DNA of 64,000 nucleotides from positions 1 through 64,000 of the forward strand of contig JAJEEE010000010.1 in the NCBI GenBank assembly GCA_022821145.1. Reading direction: 5' to 3'. Shown piece by piece: positions 5,501 to 55,194 of this stretch (its first letter is position 1; every line of letters starts with the position of its first letter). The position numbers and the translations under genes are program-made. Source of the stretch: Acidobacteriota bacterium. GTDB lineage: Bacteria > Acidobacteriota > Terriglobia > 20CM-2-55-15. The notes beneath the pieces are model-generated. The model ran no database searches, was not told where the DNA came from, and saw only the letters and a list, made by a program, of their open reading frames with translations.

Positions 5501-5659
5501 TTCCGGCCCCGTTCGCGTCAACCTCCGGCCGGCCCCGAATAGTTCATGATCGAGACCGGGTGCGGTTGACGCGGCACGGTCAGTTTTCTTATCCTGCCTT
5601 GTTCGCCCTGTTGCCGCCTCGGGCCGAGTTCCGTGCCGGCACGGCGTCGCCGGAAACGC

Positions 5660-6625
5660 ATGGACTCCAACGAAAACCCCATCGCGGTGCCTCCCGAAGA
5701 GGAGTTGAACGACCTCACCGAGGTCCGGAAACCCACCTCGCTCCTTGTGGCGCAGTTCTTCCTGTTCCCGCTGATCATCATCGCCTTCGGTGTCGGGATT
5801 TTCGTGCTGTTCGGCTACATGGCCTACGACGAACCTCCGCCGGAAGAATATCTCGCGGTCATCCGAAGTTCCGGAGGCTATTTCGACCGGCAGCGGTGGC
5901 AGGCGGCCGCCCAGATGACCAACGTCATCGCGACACGCGCGGACGAGCTCCGGGGAACGGGGTTCGCCGACGAGGTCCTGGCCGCGTACATCGACGCGCA
6001 GGCCACGACCGTTACGGGACGCGAGGCCGCGGCCTCGGATCCGCTGCTGGGATTGTTGTCGCTCGACCCGGACGAGTCCCAGCTCCGCCGGTTCCTGGCC
6101 ATGAGCCTGGGATATCTCCAGCACGCGCCCGCCGTGCCGGCGCTGACGCGGGGCCTGAACGACCCGAACGCCGAAACCCAGATCTGGACGCTGTGGGCCC
6201 TGGGCATGGTGGGCGATCCGTCGGCGGGTCCGGCGGCGGCCGGCATGATCGGATCCGGCGACGCCGGCGTACGACAGATGTCCGCCTACGTCCTCGGCGT
6301 GCTCCGGAACCCGCTGACCCGAGAGGACCTGCAGAACGCGCTCCGGGATCCGGCCGCCGACGTCCGGTGGACGGCGGCCATGTCGCTGGCGCAAATGGGA
6401 GACGCGACGGGAGCCGATCTGCTGATCGAGGTGACCGACCGAAGCTACTTCGACGGCTTCGAGGAAATGTCCGACGAGGACAAGGAAACCGTCATCACCA
6501 ACGCGGTCCATTGCCTGGGTCTCCTGAAACTGGACCGGGCTCGAGGTCACCTGGCCGAGCTGCGCGCGAACGACCCGAGCCTGAAGGTGCGCGCGGCGGC
6601 GATCGCCGCCCTCGAGGCGTATTGA
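5660..6625 (+). CDS. Membrane-anchored HEAT-repeat protein
   Basis: N-terminal TM segment (FFLFPLIIIAFGVGIFVLFGY) followed by HEAT-like helical repeats (e.g. VPALTRGLNDPNAETQIWTLWALGMVGDPSAGPAAAG). Confidence 0.78.
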   Translation: MDSNENPIAVPPEEELNDLTEVRKPTSLLVAQFFLFPLIIIAFGVGIFVLFGYMAYDEPPPEEYLAVIRSSGGYFDRQRWQAAAQMTNVIATRADELRGTGFADEVLAAYIDAQATTVTGREAAASDPLLGLLSLDPDESQLRRFLAMSLGYLQHAPAVPALTRGLNDPNAETQIWTLWALGMVGDPSAGPAAAGMIGSGDAGVRQMSAYVLGVLRNPLTREDLQNALRDPAADVRWTAAMSLAQMGDATGADLLIEVTDRSYFDGFEEMSDEDKETVITNAVHCLGLLKLDRARGHLAELRANDPSLKVRAAAIAALEAY

Positions 6626-6680
6626 TGAACGGTTCCGATGTCCTCTGCAGGTTGTTTCTGATCGATAGAGGAGTCCTCTA

Positions 6681-7217
6681 ATGAGCAAAGTGAATCCTCC
6701 CCGACCCGCGGCGAAACGCGGCGAGCCCGCCGACGCGGGGCGTCGATCGTTCTTTTCGTGGATGAGCCTGGCATGGGTCTCCTTCACCGCCTCGATGCTG
6801 GCGGCCGGCACGGCCACGGCCCGTTTCATGTTCCCGAACGTGCTCTTCGAGCCGCCGCTGACGTTCCGCGCCGGCCGGCCCGAGGAATTGCAGGTGGGCA
6901 TCGTGGACGAGCGGTTCAAGGACTCCAACCAGGTGTGGCTGGTGCGCGACGGCGGCGGGATCTACGCGCTGTCGACCACGTGCACCCACCTGGGGTGCAC
7001 GCCGAACTGGCTGTCGGCCGAACAGAAGTTCAAGTGTCCGTGCCACGGGAGCGGTTTCTACATTACCGGCATCAACTTCGAGGGGCCCGCGCCGCGCCCG
7101 CTGGAACGTTTCGCGATCGACCTGGCCGACGACGGGCAGCTCGTGATCGACAAGGGCCGCAAGTTCCAGCAGGAGAAGGGTCAGTGGGAGCTGCCGGGAG
7201 CGTATCTGGAGTTCTAG
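6681..7217 (+). CDS. Rieske Fe-S protein (menaquinol/ubiquinol-cytochrome c reductase iron-sulfur subunit)
   Basis: CTHLGC and CPCHGSGF cluster-binding motifs; N-terminal TM. Confidence 0.93.
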   Translation: MSKVNPPRPAAKRGEPADAGRRSFFSWMSLAWVSFTASMLAAGTATARFMFPNVLFEPPLTFRAGRPEELQVGIVDERFKDSNQVWLVRDGGGIYALSTTCTHLGCTPNWLSAEQKFKCPCHGSGFYITGINFEGPAPRPLERFAIDLADDGQLVIDKGRKFQQEKGQWELPGAYLEF

Positions 7218-7222
7218 CCGCG

Positions 7223-7250
7223 TGGCGCGGCCTCACCGAGGGCCGCGCCA
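7223..7250. promoter_or_regulatory. Perfect 10-bp-stem hairpin in Rieske-cytochrome b intercistronic gap
   Basis: TGGCGCGGCC-TCACCGAG-GGCCGCGCCA. Confidence 0.5.
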
Positions 7251-7287
7251 TCGAGCATTCCGACTATTCCATCAGGTCTGATCGCAT

Positions 7288-8103
7288 ATGAGTCAACTCA
7301 AGGATCTGTTATCGAATCTCTCGCCGGCCAAGCTGGGAGAGGCCATCCAGAAGAGCCAGATCTATCGGTCGGTGTTCCGGGTGGGCGTCCCGGTCTCCGA
7401 TCGAAAACGGATGCTGGTCATGCTGGGCAACGTCTTCCTGCACCTGCACCCGGTCAAGGTGCGGAAGTCGGGAATCCGGCTGCGCTTCACCTGGTGCATG
7501 GGCGGCATCACGTTCTTCCTGTTCCTGGTGCTGACCTTCACCGGCCTGCTCCTGATGTTCTACTACAGGCCGACCATCGAGTACGCCTACGTCGACATCA
7601 TCGACCTGCGCGAACAGGTGCCGCTGGGCATCATGCGGGAGATTCATCGCTGGGGCGCCCACGCGATGGTGATCAGCGTCTGGCTCCACATGTTCCGCGT
7701 GTTCATGACCGGTTCCTACAAGCCGCCCCGGGAGTTCAACTGGGGCGTGGGCGTGATCCTGCTGGTCCTGACGCTGCTGTTGAGCTTCACCGGCTACCTG
7801 CTTCCGTGGGACCAGTTGGCCATGTGGGCCATCACCGTGGGCTCGAACATGGCGCGGGCCACGCCGTTCGCCGGGTACGAGGGCCCAGGCGCCAACCTGC
7901 TGACCCTGGGCGAGAACATCCCGCTGATCAGCAGCACCAGCGACGCGCGGTTCGCGCTTCTGGGAGGCACGCGAGTGGGCGAAATGGCGCTGCTGCGCTT
8001 CTACGTGCTGCACTGCGTCGGTCTCCCGCTGGTCGCCGGTTTCCTGATGGCGGTGCACTTCTGGCGCATACGCCGGGACGGCGGCATTTCCGGGCCGCTC
8101 TAG
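7288..8103 (+). CDS. Cytochrome b N-terminal subunit (cytochrome b6-like)
   Basis: Multi-[11 protein letters not shown] and WLHMFRVF histidines, [20 protein letters not shown] motif. Confidence 0.92.
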
Positions 8104-8118
8104 AGAACGGGCAAGCGA

Positions 8119-9198
8119 ATGGAAACCATCAAGGACATCATCAACACCCTGACGGCGCCCGAGATCCTGATCACGCTGGCGGCGATCCTCTTGTTCGTCT
8201 CGGCCCGGTACCGGCACCTGTTCTACACGAACAAGGTGGCGCTGATCCTGTTTCCGGCGATGTTCGTGTTCATGGCGATCAGCATGTTCGACGAGGACTT
8301 CTACCTGATCGTCACCAAGCCGGACAACGTGCCGATCGTCGGCATGCTGTTCCTGATCCCGTTCTTCACGTGGCTCTCGATGCGCGAGGCCGTCCGCAAC
8401 GACAAGCGCACGGAAGAGGGGGCGCCGCTGATCGAAAAGGAAGAAACGGCCGACAAGGTGCTGACCTGGCCCGACCTGGTCTACACCGAGCTGATCGCCA
8501 TCGTGCTGCTGACGGTCCTGCTGGTCGGCTGGTCCATCCTGATCCCGGCGCCCCTGGAAGAGTCCGCCAACCCGGCGGCCACGCCGAACCCCTCGAAGGC
8601 GCCCTGGTACTTCCTCGGCCTGCAGGAAATGCTGGTCTACTTCGATCCGTGGCTGGCGGGCGTGGTGTTTCCGGGCCTGATCATCGTGGGGCTGATGGCG
8701 ATTCCATACATCGACACCAACCCGAAGGGGAACGGCTATTACACGTTCAAGGAACGCAGTTGGGAGATCATGACCTTCCTGTTCGGGTTCCTGATCCTGT
8801 GGGTGCTGCTGGTCATCCTGGGAACGTTCCTGCGCGGGCCCAACTGGAACTTCTTCGGCCCGTACGAGTACTGGGACACGCACAAGCTGGAAGCGCTGGT
8901 CAACGTGGACCTGTCCGACTATTTCTGGGTGCGGCTGCTCGGCATGGGACGGCCCGACAACATCCTCGTCCGGGAGAGCGTCGGGTTCCTGGTCGTGCTC
9001 GGCTATTTCCTGGTTCCCCCGATGCTGCTGGCCAAAACCATATTCAAGCGGTTCTACGAGAACCTCGGCCCGGCCCGCTATCACATCATGGTCTTCCTGC
9101 TGCTGTGCATGGCGTCGCTGCCGATCAAGATGGTTCTGCGCTGGCTGTTCAACCTGAAGTACATCATCGGGATACCGGAGTACTTCTTCAACATTTAG
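8119..9198 (+). CDS. Cytochrome b C-terminal subunit (subunit IV-like)
   Basis: PAPLEESANPAATPNPSKAPWYFLGLQEMLVYF typical of cytochrome b C-terminal domain; multi-TM. Confidence 0.9.
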   Translation: METIKDIINTLTAPEILITLAAILLFVSARYRHLFYTNKVALILFPAMFVFMAISMFDEDFYLIVTKPDNVPIVGMLFLIPFFTWLSMREAVRNDKRTEEGAPLIEKEETADKVLTWPDLVYTELIAIVLLTVLLVGWSILIPAPLEESANPAATPNPSKAPWYFLGLQEMLVYFDPWLAGVVFPGLIIVGLMAIPYIDTNPKGNGYYTFKERSWEIMTFLFGFLILWVLLVILGTFLRGPNWNFFGPYEYWDTHKLEALVNVDLSDYFWVRLLGMGRPDNILVRESVGFLVVLGYFLVPPMLLAKTIFKRFYENLGPARYHIMVFLLLCMASLPIKMVLRWLFNLKYIIGIPEYFFNI

Positions 9199-48614: not shown

Positions 48615-50384
48615 CTAGTGTGACCGGTCCCGCCGAATCGCCTCATAGAAGCTCTCTGAGTGAATCTTCGTAACCTTCGACAGAGCACGCCGAGCAGCAA
48701 TGACGACATCACCGTGAAACTCGGAAAAGGCGAAGACTCGGACATTATAGCGAAAATGTGTATAGGCCTGAGTCCATTGACCGATTGGGAAGACCAGTGT
48801 CAACGGTATTCCGGTCTCTTCGTTAGTGCGCCTTACTACTAGTTCATTGACATCTTCGAAAGTAGGGGGTCTCGGGACATCGAGCCATACACCCGCCTTT
48901 ACCAACGCCTCGTCGGCATTAGCCGCCATGCCGGCCCGCATATTCAGAAGTTCCTCCCCGATATTTCTCTGGACCTCGTCCACGATACGTTCCCGATTCG
49001 CCTTGTCCTGCAGAGCCGTCAAAAAATTGGTCACCAACGCCCTCTCCGCATGGCTCGGGACAGATCCGTTGATTCCATAGACTTCACGCGGCAAAACGCG
49101 ATTGCGGATTCTATAAAGATATTGCTGAAGAACCGCGTCCGTCGGTTCCGCCGCCAAGTCTCCGCCGATCGCCGCATCGCTCATGCCGAGAAAAAAAGTC
49201 ACAATGTCATCGTCAGACGTGCCGTGGCGTTGCCACATGTCAACCTTACGCTCCAATGCCCTCTTCAGAAGACCTTCCGCCGCACGAACCTTTGGATGAT
49301 GGTAGATGTAGCTGAACAACATCAACTTGCAGATGACAATCTGCTCAATCGCGTTCATACCCTCTTTTGGAAGTCTAAGCCGATACGTGTCGTAGAAAGG
49401 AAATGAATTTGACGAGTTCTTGGGAGAGCGGCTGACTGAGTGTCCGGCGGCGTTGTACAGCGCCTCAAGGCGATCTTCACCGTCCGCCAGCGTTTCCTTT
49501 TCGATCCGGATGGAATAAAGATACCTTTCCAAGTCATATCGTAAGGGCAGTCCGGCGTTAGCGGCGTCTCGAAGAAGATAGTCGAGCTTGTCGGAATCGA
49601 ATCCGGAGGAAACGATGTCGGCGATGAATTGAAAGAAGGGGTGGTCGCTTCGTCCAACGAGAAATAGTGCCACCCGCACGAGATTGACCGGCCCTTCGTA
49701 CTCCTTCGGTGTGCCAGACTTCAAACGCCTCGATTGAGCACTGCTCAACAGCCCTGTCACTCCGTCCGAAAGGGCAACACAGAACGAGATTACTTCGCCC
49801 GCTCCTTTGGACTTTCCGGTCAGACGTGACAGTTCAAGCGATGCCGCTTTGAGAGGCGACAACTTCTCGTACACTAATTCGGAAGTATGGCTAAACAGAC
49901 TGTGGCCGACGTCGTGCAACAGTGCAGCGAGCCTCAGCTCTTGCTTGAGTTGAAGTATGCGGAGATCCGTGTCGCCGCCTACCGGAATGCTATTGAGAAT
50001 CGTCTCGATCTCGCCGCGGGACCGAGTCAGCAAGGCGTCGAAGGTGCGGGAGGCAACGGTCATTACGCCGACACAATGCTCGAAGCGAGTATGACGAGCG
50101 GAAGGATACACGTGGTACGCCAAGCCGACTTGATGGATGTCGCGTAACCGTTGAAAGATTGGAGAGTCTATTAACACCAGTTCGCGCCAGCTGAGGGTAT
50201 TCGTGCCCCATAGATTGTCGTGTACTACTTTCGATGTCTTCACGGGAAGCACCGGGTGGACCGCTTCCGGGCCGAAGAATTCGGGATGTGCCGTCTCGAA
50301 GTACCGATCCACTAAACGCGAAATGTGCGCCAGAGCTGGAAGGTCCTTGAGAAACGCAGCGCGGTTCATCGAAGGGGTTATCAC
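48615..50384 (-). CDS. HD-domain phosphohydrolase (COG1078/dGTPase-like)
   Basis: RHTRFEHCVGVM, LAALLHDVGHSLFSH and SDKLDYLLRDA motifs; GTG start overlaps upstream stop (GTGA); alternative ATG at 50369. Confidence 0.85.
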   Translation of the reverse strand: MITPSMNRAAFLKDLPALAHISRLVDRYFETAHPEFFGPEAVHPVLPVKTSKVVHDNLWGTNTLSWRELVLIDSPIFQRLRDIHQVGLAYHVYPSARHTRFEHCVGVMTVASRTFDALLTRSRGEIETILNSIPVGGDTDLRILQLKQELRLAALLHDVGHSLFSHTSELVYEKLSPLKAASLELSRLTGKSKGAGEVISFCVALSDGVTGLLSSAQSRRLKSGTPKEYEGPVNLVRVALFLVGRSDHPFFQFIADIVSSGFDSDKLDYLLRDAANAGLPLRYDLERYLYSIRIEKETLADGEDRLEALYNAAGHSVSRSPKNSSNSFPFYDTYRLRLPKEGMNAIEQIVICKLMLFSYIYHHPKVRAAEGLLKRALERKVDMWQRHGTSDDDIVTFFLGMSDAAIGGDLAAEPTDAVLQQYLYRIRNRVLPREVYGINGSVPSHAERALVTNFLTALQDKANRERIVDEVQRNIGEELLNMRAGMAANADEALVKAGVWLDVPRPPTFEDVNELVVRRTNEETGIPLTLVFPIGQWTQAYTHFRYNVRVFAFSEFHGDVVIAARRALSKVTKIHSESFYEAIRRDRSH

Positions 50385-50779
50385 GCACCGGGGGAAAACT
50401 GTTGCTTGGCCAACGAAACGGCTTCTTTCAGGAATCGTTTGGTGCCGTCGGGGAGGTCCTCGGTCTCTTGAGACCACAAGTCAGCGACAGCATTAGGGAG
50501 CGTTATCGTGTCGTAGTGGGGATTCGCGGCAGAAACGCTAGCATTCCAGTGCAGTGCTTGCAGGAAGTCCGTCAGTTCTTGACACTTTGGGTATGGACCA
50601 TCCCAATTGAAACAGAGGTGAGCGAGAAATTCCGGCTTGCCCTGTGCGTCACGGCGCTTCAACTGGTAAAACAAGGCATGCCATGGCTCCTCGTCCTTGA
50701 AGGGCATAGCAACGCTCGCCTTCTGCATTGCGGCAGCGATCTGCTTTACCAATTCACCCAGAGACATTTCGAGATTCAT
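50381..50779 (-). CDS. Small protein of unknown function (132 aa), coupled to HD phosphohydrolase
   Basis: ORF with GAGGAG SD 5 nt before ATG; 4-nt GTGA overlap with next gene. Confidence 0.75.
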   Translation of the reverse strand: MNLEMSLGELVKQIAAAMQKASVAMPFKDEEPWHALFYQLKRRDAQGKPEFLAHLCFNWDGPYPKCQELTDFLQALHWNASVSAANPHYDTITLPNAVADLWSQETEDLPDGTKRFLKEAVSLAKQQFSPGA

Positions 50780-51151
50780 GCGTGCTCCTCGTGCAAGCGT
50801 AGAGCAAGAACGACGGTCCTGATCGTAAACCCGTGCCCGCCATCAACGCAAGAAAAACGGGAACTACAGCGCGTTGGGCCAAAGTACGTGCTAACAAAGT
50901 AGCATCCGACGGCGGCAGGCCAGGTAAGGTCCCAGCAGAGCGAGCCGGGGACACTCATCGCGTCGACAATAACACCGTCGGACGGCGGCGGGATTGCGGC
51001 GGGAAACGGCGCAGCACTGCGCTTCTTTCACCACCGCGGCGGTGTCCGGCTGAGTTGATCGAGGGGCATTGTCTGCATATCGATCGCGGAGCCGCGAACG
51101 GCCGATGTTGTTGTCGCAGAGAGTTCGGCGCATGAGGTTCGCCCGTCGGCC

Positions 51152-51687: not shown

Positions 51688-53373
51688 ATGACACGCATCG
51701 TGGTATACGGTCCGAACCGAAGGCTGGGTACATTGGTCGCCCGACTGGCGGTCATTGTCTGTCTTTGGTCCGGCGCGAGCCTTCTATGCGCCGCGCAAGC
51801 CGGAGACGAACCCGATGTCCTGCGTGTCGGCGCCCAGCTCGTGCAGGTGAACGTCGTCGTCACCGACGACGACGGCCCCGTCCACGATCTGACGGCCGAC
51901 GACTTCACCGTGCTGGACGACGGCGTCGTACGCACGATCGAGGTGTTCGAGGTCATCCGCTCCGAGACCGGCGATTCCGATGCGGCGGCGATGCTGCCCG
52001 ACCACGTCGTATCGAACCGGCTGGACCGCCGCGGACGCCGGCCCGAATCCGCCACGGCCATTCTCGTCGACCGGCTGAACACGCTCGGCCCCGATCAGGC
52101 GTTCATGGACGACCAGGTCCGGACTTTCCTCGATGAAGCGGCAGCCGGCGGCGAGCATGTCGCCGTCCTCGAACTCCGAGAGGACGGCCTGACCGTCCTG
52201 GCCGACTTTACGAATCACGCCTCGGTCCTTCGGAACGCGCTGGAGAGCCGCCGCCCGTCCCACTCCCTGGCGATGGAGTCGAGCCAGGACTTCTTCATGG
52301 GCGGATTGGACCCCGTGCTGGCGGAAGCGGCGGGGGAATCCACCGGCGACGAAGACGACAATGCCGACGGATTGGCGACCACGTTGCTGATCCAGGTTCA
52401 ACGGTACTACATGAACCGGCGCGTCTTGCTGACGGCCGCGGCGCTCGAGGCCGGCGCACGATACTTGTCACCGTTGCCCGGCCGGAAGAACCTCGTATGG
52501 CTTTCCGCGCAGTTTCCGTTTCCGTACAGGCCTTGGCAGGACCCGCGATTCAACATCGCCGGCGCCAACCTGCCGCCCGCGACGCTCGACCGGATCGAGG
52601 ACGTCTTTCGCATCATCGTCGACAGTGACGTCGCCGTGTATCCGATCGATGCATTGGGACTCCGCAGCGAACGCTTCCGCGGCTTCGGGGGCAACCGCGA
52701 CGCGGCCGCGGACTTGAACAAAATAGTCGATCTGCCGATGAGGATCGCCGCGGTCACCGGGGGACGCACGTCGTTCAACACGAACGGGCTGACCACCCGG
52801 ATGCGCGAGGCGGTCCGTGACATGAACGCCAGCTACTCGCTCGGGTTCTACGTTCCGGAAGTCGAGTCCGACGCGGAGTTCCATGAGATCGACGTTCGTG
52901 TCGAGCGCGATGACGTCGACGTCCTGCACCGGAGCGGCTACTTCGGGTTCGACGCCTCCCCGTCGGTCGAACGCGCCCTGAACCAGACGTTGACGGATCC
53001 GTTCGACGCGACCGGCATCGGCCTGCTCGCGGCCGCGGAACCCATACCGGACGAAACGGGCAGCTATACGGTCACACTCGCAGTCGACGTGAATGACATC
53101 GACCTGATTCGGAAAGGCGACCACTGGGCCGGTTCACTCACGGTCGCGATGGGTTTCTACGCTACTTCGTTGGACGAGTATCGGCGTTTCGCGCCCGTCC
53201 GTCACGAGGTCCGCCTAACGGATTCGCAACTCGCAACGGCCCGGCAGGTGATGAGCGTGATCATCCCGCAAGCAGTCGATACGGGGAACGACGCCGGCCA
53301 TCTCCGCGTGGCCGTGCAGGATGCAGCGACGGGCGAGACCGGTTCGCTCTGGCTGAGCCTCGGCCAAGAATAG
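51688..53373 (+). CDS. Acidobacterial VWFA-related domain protein
   Basis: Signal peptide; RVGAQLVQVNVVVTDDDGPVHDLTADDFTVLDDGV; SYSLGFYVPE (TIGR03436-like). Confidence 0.88.
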   Translation: MTRIVVYGPNRRLGTLVARLAVIVCLWSGASLLCAAQAGDEPDVLRVGAQLVQVNVVVTDDDGPVHDLTADDFTVLDDGVVRTIEVFEVIRSETGDSDAAAMLPDHVVSNRLDRRGRRPESATAILVDRLNTLGPDQAFMDDQVRTFLDEAAAGGEHVAVLELREDGLTVLADFTNHASVLRNALESRRPSHSLAMESSQDFFMGGLDPVLAEAAGESTGDEDDNADGLATTLLIQVQRYYMNRRVLLTAAALEAGARYLSPLPGRKNLVWLSAQFPFPYRPWQDPRFNIAGANLPPATLDRIEDVFRIIVDSDVAVYPIDALGLRSERFRGFGGNRDAAADLNKIVDLPMRIAAVTGGRTSFNTNGLTTRMREAVRDMNASYSLGFYVPEVESDAEFHEIDVRVERDDVDVLHRSGYFGFDASPSVERALNQTLTDPFDATGIGLLAAAEPIPDETGSYTVTLAVDVNDIDLIRKGDHWAGSLTVAMGFYATSLDEYRRFAPVRHEVRLTDSQLATARQVMSVIIPQAVDTGNDAGHLRVAVQDAATGETGSLWLSLGQE

Positions 53374-53484: not shown

Positions 53485-55194
53485 ATGACATACATCGCGC
53501 GACACGGTCCGAACGGCAGGCCGGGCACGTCGGTCGCCCGGCTGTCGGTCGTCGTCTGTCTTTGGTCGGGCGCGGACCTTCTCGGCGCGGCCCAGGTGGG
53601 CGAGGAAGCCGGCGTCCTGCGCGTCGGCACGCAGCTCGTGCAGGTGAACGTCGTCGTGACCGGCGACGAGGGCCCCATCCGGGACCTGACCGTCGACGAC
53701 TTCACCGTCCTGGACGACGGCGTCGAACGCCGTATCGAGGTCTTCGACGTGATCCGCTCCGCGACGGATGACGCCGATCCGGCGGCGATGCTCCCCGACG
53801 GCATCGTGTCGAACCGCCTCGATCGCCGTGGACGACGGCCGGAATCCGTCACGGCCATCCTCATCGATCGGGTGAATACGCAGGTTATCGACCAGCCGTT
53901 CATGGACGACCAGGTCCGGTCGTTCCTCGACGACGCGTCGGCCACCGGCGAGCACGTCGCCGTTCTCGAACTCGGCGAGGAGGGGCTGACTGTCCTGGCC
54001 GACTTCACGGCTCACCCCGTGGCTGTTCGCGACGCGCTCCAGTCCCGACGCCCATCGCACTCGCTGGCGTTGGAATCGAGCCGGGATTTCGTCACGGGCG
54101 AGATGGACCCGGTGCGCGCGGGAACGGAGGGATTTCCTCACGCCAACGATTACATCCGATCGAGCCTGGAATTCTTCTGGGGACGGGACCCCATGAGCGC
54201 AATGACGGCAGCACGATCGCCCTTCCGGCTATACGCGGACGTGCTCTCGCGCCAGATTGAAGCGTATTACATGGAACGGCGAGTCGTACTGACGGTTGCC
54301 GCACTCGAGGCGACGGCCCGGCACCTGTCAGAGTTTCCCGGCCGCAAGAACCTCGTGTGGCTCTCCGCGCGGTTTCCGTTTCCGTTCCGGCCGTGGCAGG
54401 ACCCTCGACTCAACTTCGCTGCCGCGAGCGGGTGGCCGCATTCCACTCTGGATCGAATCGACGAGGCGTTTCGCAGGATCGTCGACAGCGACGTCGCCGT
54501 GTATCCGATCGATGCACTGGGCCTACCCGCTCGATCGGACGCAACAATCGGCATTCAGATGGAGATCGCCGAAATCACGGGCGGACGCGTGTCGTTCAAC
54601 ACCAACGGACCGGCCGCACGCATGCATCAGGCGGCCCGGGACACGGGCACCAACTACTCGTTGGGATTCTACGTCCCGGAAGTCGAGTCCGACGCGGAGT
54701 TTCACGAACTGGAGGTTCGCGTGGACCGCGACGGCGTCGACGTACTGCATCGGAGCGGCTACTTCGGATTCGGCGCCGACGCGCCGGGTTCAGGCGACCT
54801 GGACCGGACCCTGCAGGACCCGTTCAACGCGATGGGAGTCGGCCTGCTCGCCACGGCGGAACCCGTTCCGGCCGCGCCCGGCCTGTATACGGTCACCCTC
54901 GCCATCGACGTGAACGACATCGACCTGATCCGGGAAGCCGATCACTGGACCGGATCGCTCGCGGTTGTGACGAGCTTCTACATCACCGAATTGGACCGGT
55001 ACTCGAACGGGCCGCCCGTCATGCACGCGATCCGGCTCACCGACGCCGAATACGAGACGGCGCAGCGGTTGTCGAACGTCGTTCTCGAGGACGTCGTCGA
55101 AACCGACGGCTACGCCGGTCATCTCCGCGTGGCCGTGCAGGATGCAGCGACGGGCGAGACCGGTTCGCTCTGGCTGAGCCTCGGCGAGGAGTAA
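53485..55194 (+). CDS. Acidobacterial VWFA-related domain protein (paralog)
   Basis: Same domain layout as 51688..53373; near-identical 3' end. Confidence 0.88.
   Translation: MTYIARHGPNGRPGTSVARLSVVVCLWSGADLLGAAQVGEEAGVLRVGTQLVQVNVVVTGDEGPIRDLTVDDFTVLDDGVERRIEVFDVIRSATDDADPAAMLPDGIVSNRLDRRGRRPESVTAILIDRVNTQVIDQPFMDDQVRSFLDDASATGEHVAVLELGEEGLTVLADFTAHPVAVRDALQSRRPSHSLALESSRDFVTGEMDPVRAGTEGFPHANDYIRSSLEFFWGRDPMSAMTAARSPFRLYADVLSRQIEAYYMERRVVLTVAALEATARHLSEFPGRKNLVWLSARFPFPFRPWQDPRLNFAAASGWPHSTLDRIDEAFRRIVDSDVAVYPIDALGLPARSDATIGIQMEIAEITGGRVSFNTNGPAARMHQAARDTGTNYSLGFYVPEVESDAEFHELEVRVDRDGVDVLHRSGYFGFGADAPGSGDLDRTLQDPFNAMGVGLLATAEPVPAAPGLYTVTLAIDVNDIDLIREADHWTGSLAVVTSFYITELDRYSNGPPVMHAIRLTDAEYETAQRLSNVVLEDVVETDGYAGHLRVAVQDAATGETGSLWLSLGEE

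Follow-up and report, generated by a model that had tools for sequence, protein, structure and literature searches.

A small protein encoded with a SAMHD1-type HD protein: a candidate antiviral module in an Acidobacteriota genome

Introduction

Why does the gene for an HD protein of the SAMHD1 kind overlap that of a small upstream protein in an Acidobacteriota bacterium, and could the two serve together in defence against viruses? We address these questions for a gene pair in the window (the whole stretch of DNA that was analysed, 64,000 nucleotides of contig JAJEEE010000010.1), which is part of a 4.2 Mb draft genome. A preliminary description, made from the sequence alone, had suggested an accessory enzyme with a partner, possibly a defence or nucleotide-sensing module. 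Our literature search revealed no description of this pair; it covered subscription papers incompletely, and a prior description is possible.

Results

Structure of the gene pair

Both genes of the cassette are located on the minus strand. The features are as follows:

50381–50779 (including stop), minus strand: gene for P0001, the small partner of 132 aa (ATG at 50779 to TGA at 50381; open reading frame with GAGGAG site)
48615–50384 (including stop), minus strand: gene for P0002, a predicted SAMHD1-type HD protein of 589 aa (GTG at 50384)
50785–50790, minus strand: GAGGAG ribosome-binding site of the partner gene (sequence read directly)

The GAGGAG sequence sits five bases ahead of the P0001 start codon. 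The GTG start of P0002 and the P0001 stop share four bases (GTGA), and an alternative start codon for P0002 (ATG) is found 15 bases further in. The two frames, the GAGGAG sequence and the GTGA overlap had been listed in the preliminary description, together with the HD motifs treated below, and each could be located as described.

The pair forms a patch of about 54% GC surrounded by DNA of about 66% GC. P0001 and P0002 have a GC content of 54% and a GC3 of 61–63%, compared with 65–70% and 82–91% in the neighbouring genes, so that the foreign-looking composition reported earlier is borne out. As to marks of a genomic island, neither a tRNA nor an Rfam match was found around the pair, and the only flanking repeats are short and probably due to chance.

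The closest relative of the pair is found in G525, a genome of the same phylum. Its HD protein is an orthologue of P0002 (56% identity, 587 aa compared with 589 aa), and its partner, 53% identical to P0001, is likewise encoded upstream of the HD gene, the genes overlapping by 17 bases. Between these relatives, pN is 0.31 and pS is 0.74 for P0001; the values for P0002 are 0.31 and 0.82. This constraint on the amino acid sequence (pN < pS) indicates that the 132-aa reading frame is a real gene and, with the orthologue in G525, upholds the initial view of a genuine coupled partner.

P0002 is predicted to have a SAMHD1-type core

Pfam analysis of P0002 revealed a match to the HD domain (E = 1.5e-5) and a weak one to HD_assoc_2. 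Sequence searches of the PDB returned 2hek, 2o6i/4lrl and SAMHD1, related bacterial HD proteins thus being among the matches. The motifs HTRFEHC, LLHDVGH and DKLDYLLRDA are all present; HTRFEH, HDVGHSLFSH and DSDKLDY occur in the window copy and its relatives and align with SAMHD1. The H...HD...D metal ligands and the catalytic histidines of SAMHD1-type (COG1078) HD proteins are likewise found; in SAMHD1, these motifs hold the metal and catalyse hydrolysis. Judged by its sequence, the core of P0002 is of the SAMHD1 type, and the motifs for metal binding and catalysis are intact, in line with its original assignment to the COG1078/SAMHD1 kind. Its substrate is probably dNTP.

The proposed search of both proteins against PADLOC yielded a weak match of the dGTPase model to residues 71–171 of P0002, over the active site of the HD core (E = 4.9e-4); beyond this no PADLOC model covers the family, and none matches P0001. 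The NCBIfam model TIGR01353 scored 18.6 bits against P0002, below its curated cut-off of 152.

L083, a relative longer than P0002, was modelled with AlphaFold (mean pLDDT 70). The model could be aligned to SAMHD1 structures over approximately 570 columns, with E values of about 1e-15 and TM scores of up to 0.73 of the target. The overall SAMHD1 fold is thus seen in this relative and predicted from it for P0002. Because the matched columns correspond to all of P0002, its carboxy-terminal part is predicted to be the ordinary second lobe of SAMHD1 and not the long extension that had been assumed.

A scan of genome contigs with P0002 alone retrieved only unpaired HD proteins of Bathyarchaeota. The genome of the window encodes a second HD protein (contig C3, 149816–151087) with a strong HD_assoc_2 match, which is probably of the ordinary housekeeping type; no homologue of the small partner was found at this gene.

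Profile comparison supports homology of the small partners

P0001 did not show any hit in Pfam, NCBIfam, PADLOC or PHROGs, nor did the partner relatives that were compared with Pfam, PADLOC and PHROGs. A PDB search with the partner returned nothing useful, and the structure model of P0001 is poor (pLDDT 44).

The plasmid-type partner proteins (A7) clearly constitute one family. A plain profile of this family does not find P0001, which is too divergent (6–8 bits); this approach failed as proof of homology and was replaced by profile–profile comparison. When P0001 and its orthologue in G525 were combined into a profile, this matched the profile of the plasmid and prophage partners over 85 columns (E = 2.6e-5), with a score of 35 as compared with a maximum of 19.6 among 200 column shuffles. 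For the G397 partner the match to the plasmid type has an E value of 3e-4, and none of 200 shuffles scored as high. The partner of L058, a viral contig, matches the window type only (score 21.9; maximum 18.7 in 200 shuffles), with no match to the plasmid type. NP-x-[YF] closes the best-conserved stretch of every partner compared. These profile scores, taken together with gene position, support homology of the partners across the loci.

Partner-bearing HD proteins form their own clade

Ten further loci have an open reading frame of similar size directly upstream of a related HD gene. They come from three genomes of the same phylum (G071, G525 and G397), four plasmids and three viral contigs, and the upstream frame encodes 130–149 aa in all 11 paired loci, the window included. 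Each of the plasmids with the best P0002 relatives (Rhizobium, Desulfosarcina, Methylocystis and Sphingobium) has a frame of 134–141 aa immediately upstream of the HD gene. In nine of the 11 loci, the nearest possible HD start falls within a range from 17 bases inside to 25 bases beyond the partner stop. It lies 43 bases after the stop in G397, and 58 bases inside or 77 bases after it in L016.

Maximum-likelihood analysis separated the 11 HD proteins with a partner from 45 partnerless ones by a branch with a support of 100/96, most loci having been found via similarity to paired HD proteins and several rows being long-branched. The unpaired proteins came from plasmids and viral contigs, from Bathyarchaeota and from the same phylum; a locus was counted as partnerless according to its upstream reading frames or its annotation. 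A smaller tree with 10 paired and 41 unpaired proteins gave 97/94. Among four unpaired plasmid HD genes used as controls, none had an adjacent small partner annotated. It had been considered beforehand that such HD proteins might routinely occur without the partner in housekeeping loci, or that the 132-aa frame might lack homologues beside HD genes; instead, the partner-bearing proteins are a clade of their own, and partner homologues adjoin HD genes.

Several single loci deserve mention. A partner copy stands alone on a plasmid of Rhizobium leguminosarum TP16 (L055, 5980–6354), no HD gene being present within 6 kb of it; a second hit is reported for the same record. The HD copy of Methylocystis parvus (L013, 5884–7832) ends early, at 437 aa, where an IS6 transposase gene starts, and has apparently been cut. 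Plasmids of Sinorhizobium (L095, 1135–4922) and Roseibium (L097, 267–3886) have in common a row of genes for a radical SAM protein, a 3′–5′ exonuclease, an AAA ATPase and an HD protein without a small partner, possibly another HD-based cassette.

Distribution and genomic neighbourhood

The pair is rare and sporadically distributed: the partner profile matched two of 392 genomes of the phylum (E below 0.001) and the HD profile three of 399 genomes of the class. Genes for PtuA and PtuB (Septu) are found near the Rhizobium and Sphingobium pairs; the Desulfosarcina pair has those for NucC and a CBASS cyclase in its vicinity, and the Methylocystis pair one for an Mrr-type nuclease. Two of the viral-contig pairs are located among tail genes, the third near a serine integrase.

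In the window, the pair is flanked by DUF1592/DUF1552 and VWFA-like genes, and no recognised defence gene was found near it. The neighbourhoods in G525, G071 and G397, as far as read, contain no obvious defence genes; the G397 copy adjoins a gene which by eye reads as gyrB. The suggested role in defence or nucleotide sensing is plausible in view of the relatives next to Septu, CBASS and Mrr genes and within prophage tail modules; at the pair of the window and the same-phylum copies, no such defence gene was recognised. Two similar tandem genes in the window (51688–53373 and 53485–55194) are VWFA-type in look, with no Pfam match at an E value of 0.01.

Variants of the HD protein

The paired HD proteins are 515–908 aa long. 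Those of the plasmid/prophage type (about 800–850 aa) have a carboxy-terminal domain with the invariant pattern E...GG-x2-D-x9-ENK...Q-x-RRY. This domain has no match in Pfam or the PDB, and the L083 model is poor there; its motif suggests a nuclease-like domain. In the HD protein of L058 its place is taken by a PRTase-CE domain (E = 1e-23), which is also matched by the PADLOC models for the retron III-A PRTase (PRTase_III-A). This fusion lies in the tail-gene region of the viral contig and has its own upstream frame of 130–135 aa (locus at 5629–8763).

Short forms without either added domain are found in the window (589 aa), G525 (587 aa) and G397 (515 aa). Recurrence of the short form in another family argues against decay of the window copy. 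Truncation or decay was ruled out by the same length in G525, the constraint and the absence of any remnant of the carboxy-terminal domain in the window.

Discussion

A proposed function and its alternatives

We propose, with confidence somewhat better than even, that P0001 and P0002 are one functional unit, in which a SAMHD1-type dNTPase under control of the small partner depletes dNTPs on infection, and that this unit is a candidate antiviral module. Such a defence is likely because relatives are found on plasmids beside virus-defence genes and inside prophages. The HD protein would be a deoxynucleoside triphosphate triphosphohydrolase of the SAMHD1 type. Its co-translated partner most likely has a regulatory role and would restrain or license the enzyme as inhibitor, sensor or adaptor. 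Infection would free the enzyme from this control; the ensuing depletion of dNTPs would stop viral DNA synthesis. The added carboxy-terminal domain of the relatives, nuclease-like or PRTase-CE, probably serves as an additional effector or as an alternative one. Where the protein has the short form, as in the window, the effector would have to be the HD core itself.

Other functions of such a pair were weighed. SAMHD1-type enzymes also act in the control of dNTP pools, and the same-phylum copies are located among ordinary genes, that of G397 beside the apparent gyrB. The pair might on these grounds be an accessory of nucleotide metabolism that plays no part in antiviral defence: a regulated dNTPase, the small protein being its subunit, which balances pools or removes damaged nucleotides. 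We regard this as unlikely in view of the sporadic distribution, the foreign composition of the pair, and the relatives that plasmids and prophages carry next to Septu and CBASS. The small gene coming first, the tight coupling and the sites in mobile elements would be expected of a toxin–antitoxin-like element as well, as would the divergent MerR-like regulator gene upstream in five of seven plasmid/prophage-type loci (there is none in the window). The HD protein would then act as toxin and its small partner as antitoxin, serving maintenance of plasmid or prophage with defence as a side effect at most. A multidomain enzyme of 515–908 aa is large for a maintenance toxin, the plasmid copies are associated with defence genes, and an orphan partner exists in R. 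leguminosarum, which makes such an element rather unlikely.

The exchange of nuclease-like and PRTase-CE domains among the relatives, as known from sensor–effector systems, could mean that nucleotide sensing is the main task of the HD core, which would bind dNTPs allosterically and gate an attached or separate effector instead of being the killing enzyme. Given the intact catalytic motifs and the absence of an added domain from the short proteins of the window, G525 and G397, we consider this quite improbable.

Beyond the proposed dNTP-depleting unit of the window, the variants raise the possibility of an as yet undescribed family of immune systems with two genes each. In these, a SAMHD1-type dNTPase core with interchangeable carboxy-terminal effectors (none, nuclease-like or PRTase) would be under the control of its own small protein, itself representing a new family, such that nucleotide sensing gates different killing domains. 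This wider proposal is tentative, and we hold it with slightly less than even confidence.

Comparison with known systems

With the SAMHD1/COG1078 HD proteins (PDB 2o6i, 4lrl, 2hek) the cassette family shares the HD core, the catalytic motifs, the second lobe and the overall fold, as predicted from sequence and model; it differs by the small upstream partner, the sporadic, mobile distribution and the carboxy-terminal additions in relatives. Bacterial anti-phage dGTPases (PADLOC dGTPase) are HD hydrolases as well, and their profile matches weakly in the active-site region. However, this match extends over only about 100 residues (E = 5e-4), and those enzymes are described as single-gene systems. 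The retron type III-A PRTase effector (PRTase-CE, PF24390) recurs as the carboxy-terminal domain of one paired HD protein, that of L058, where it is fused to the HD core, whereas it is absent from the window copy.

Bacterial dNTPases are already known in immunity, but Clover is one of the few cases in which it is understood how they are restrained before infection. Clover consists of the dGTPase CloA and the nucleotidyltransferase CloB; the HD dGTPase defends against phage with its co-encoded regulator and is toxic without it (PMC12265719). Like the cassette as proposed here, Clover combines two genes, for an HD dNTPase and for a regulator encoded with it, and dNTP depletion is the proposed effect. 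The partner of the cassette, in contrast, is a protein of 130–149 aa without nucleotidyltransferase match or motif, and the partner alignment contains no conserved acidic motif of the Pol-beta-type form [D/E]h[D/E]. Further, the HD protein of the cassette is nearest to SAMHD1/HD_assoc_2 proteins, and some family members carry an added putative effector domain. The cassette is most likely analogous to Clover; as its partner shows no nucleotidyltransferase features, it is not a member. If the proposed function is correct, a conserved partner without a recognised domain, together with a core whose effectors are exchanged, would represent a different answer to the problem of restraint, and a bacterial counterpart to the way in which human SAMHD1 is controlled.
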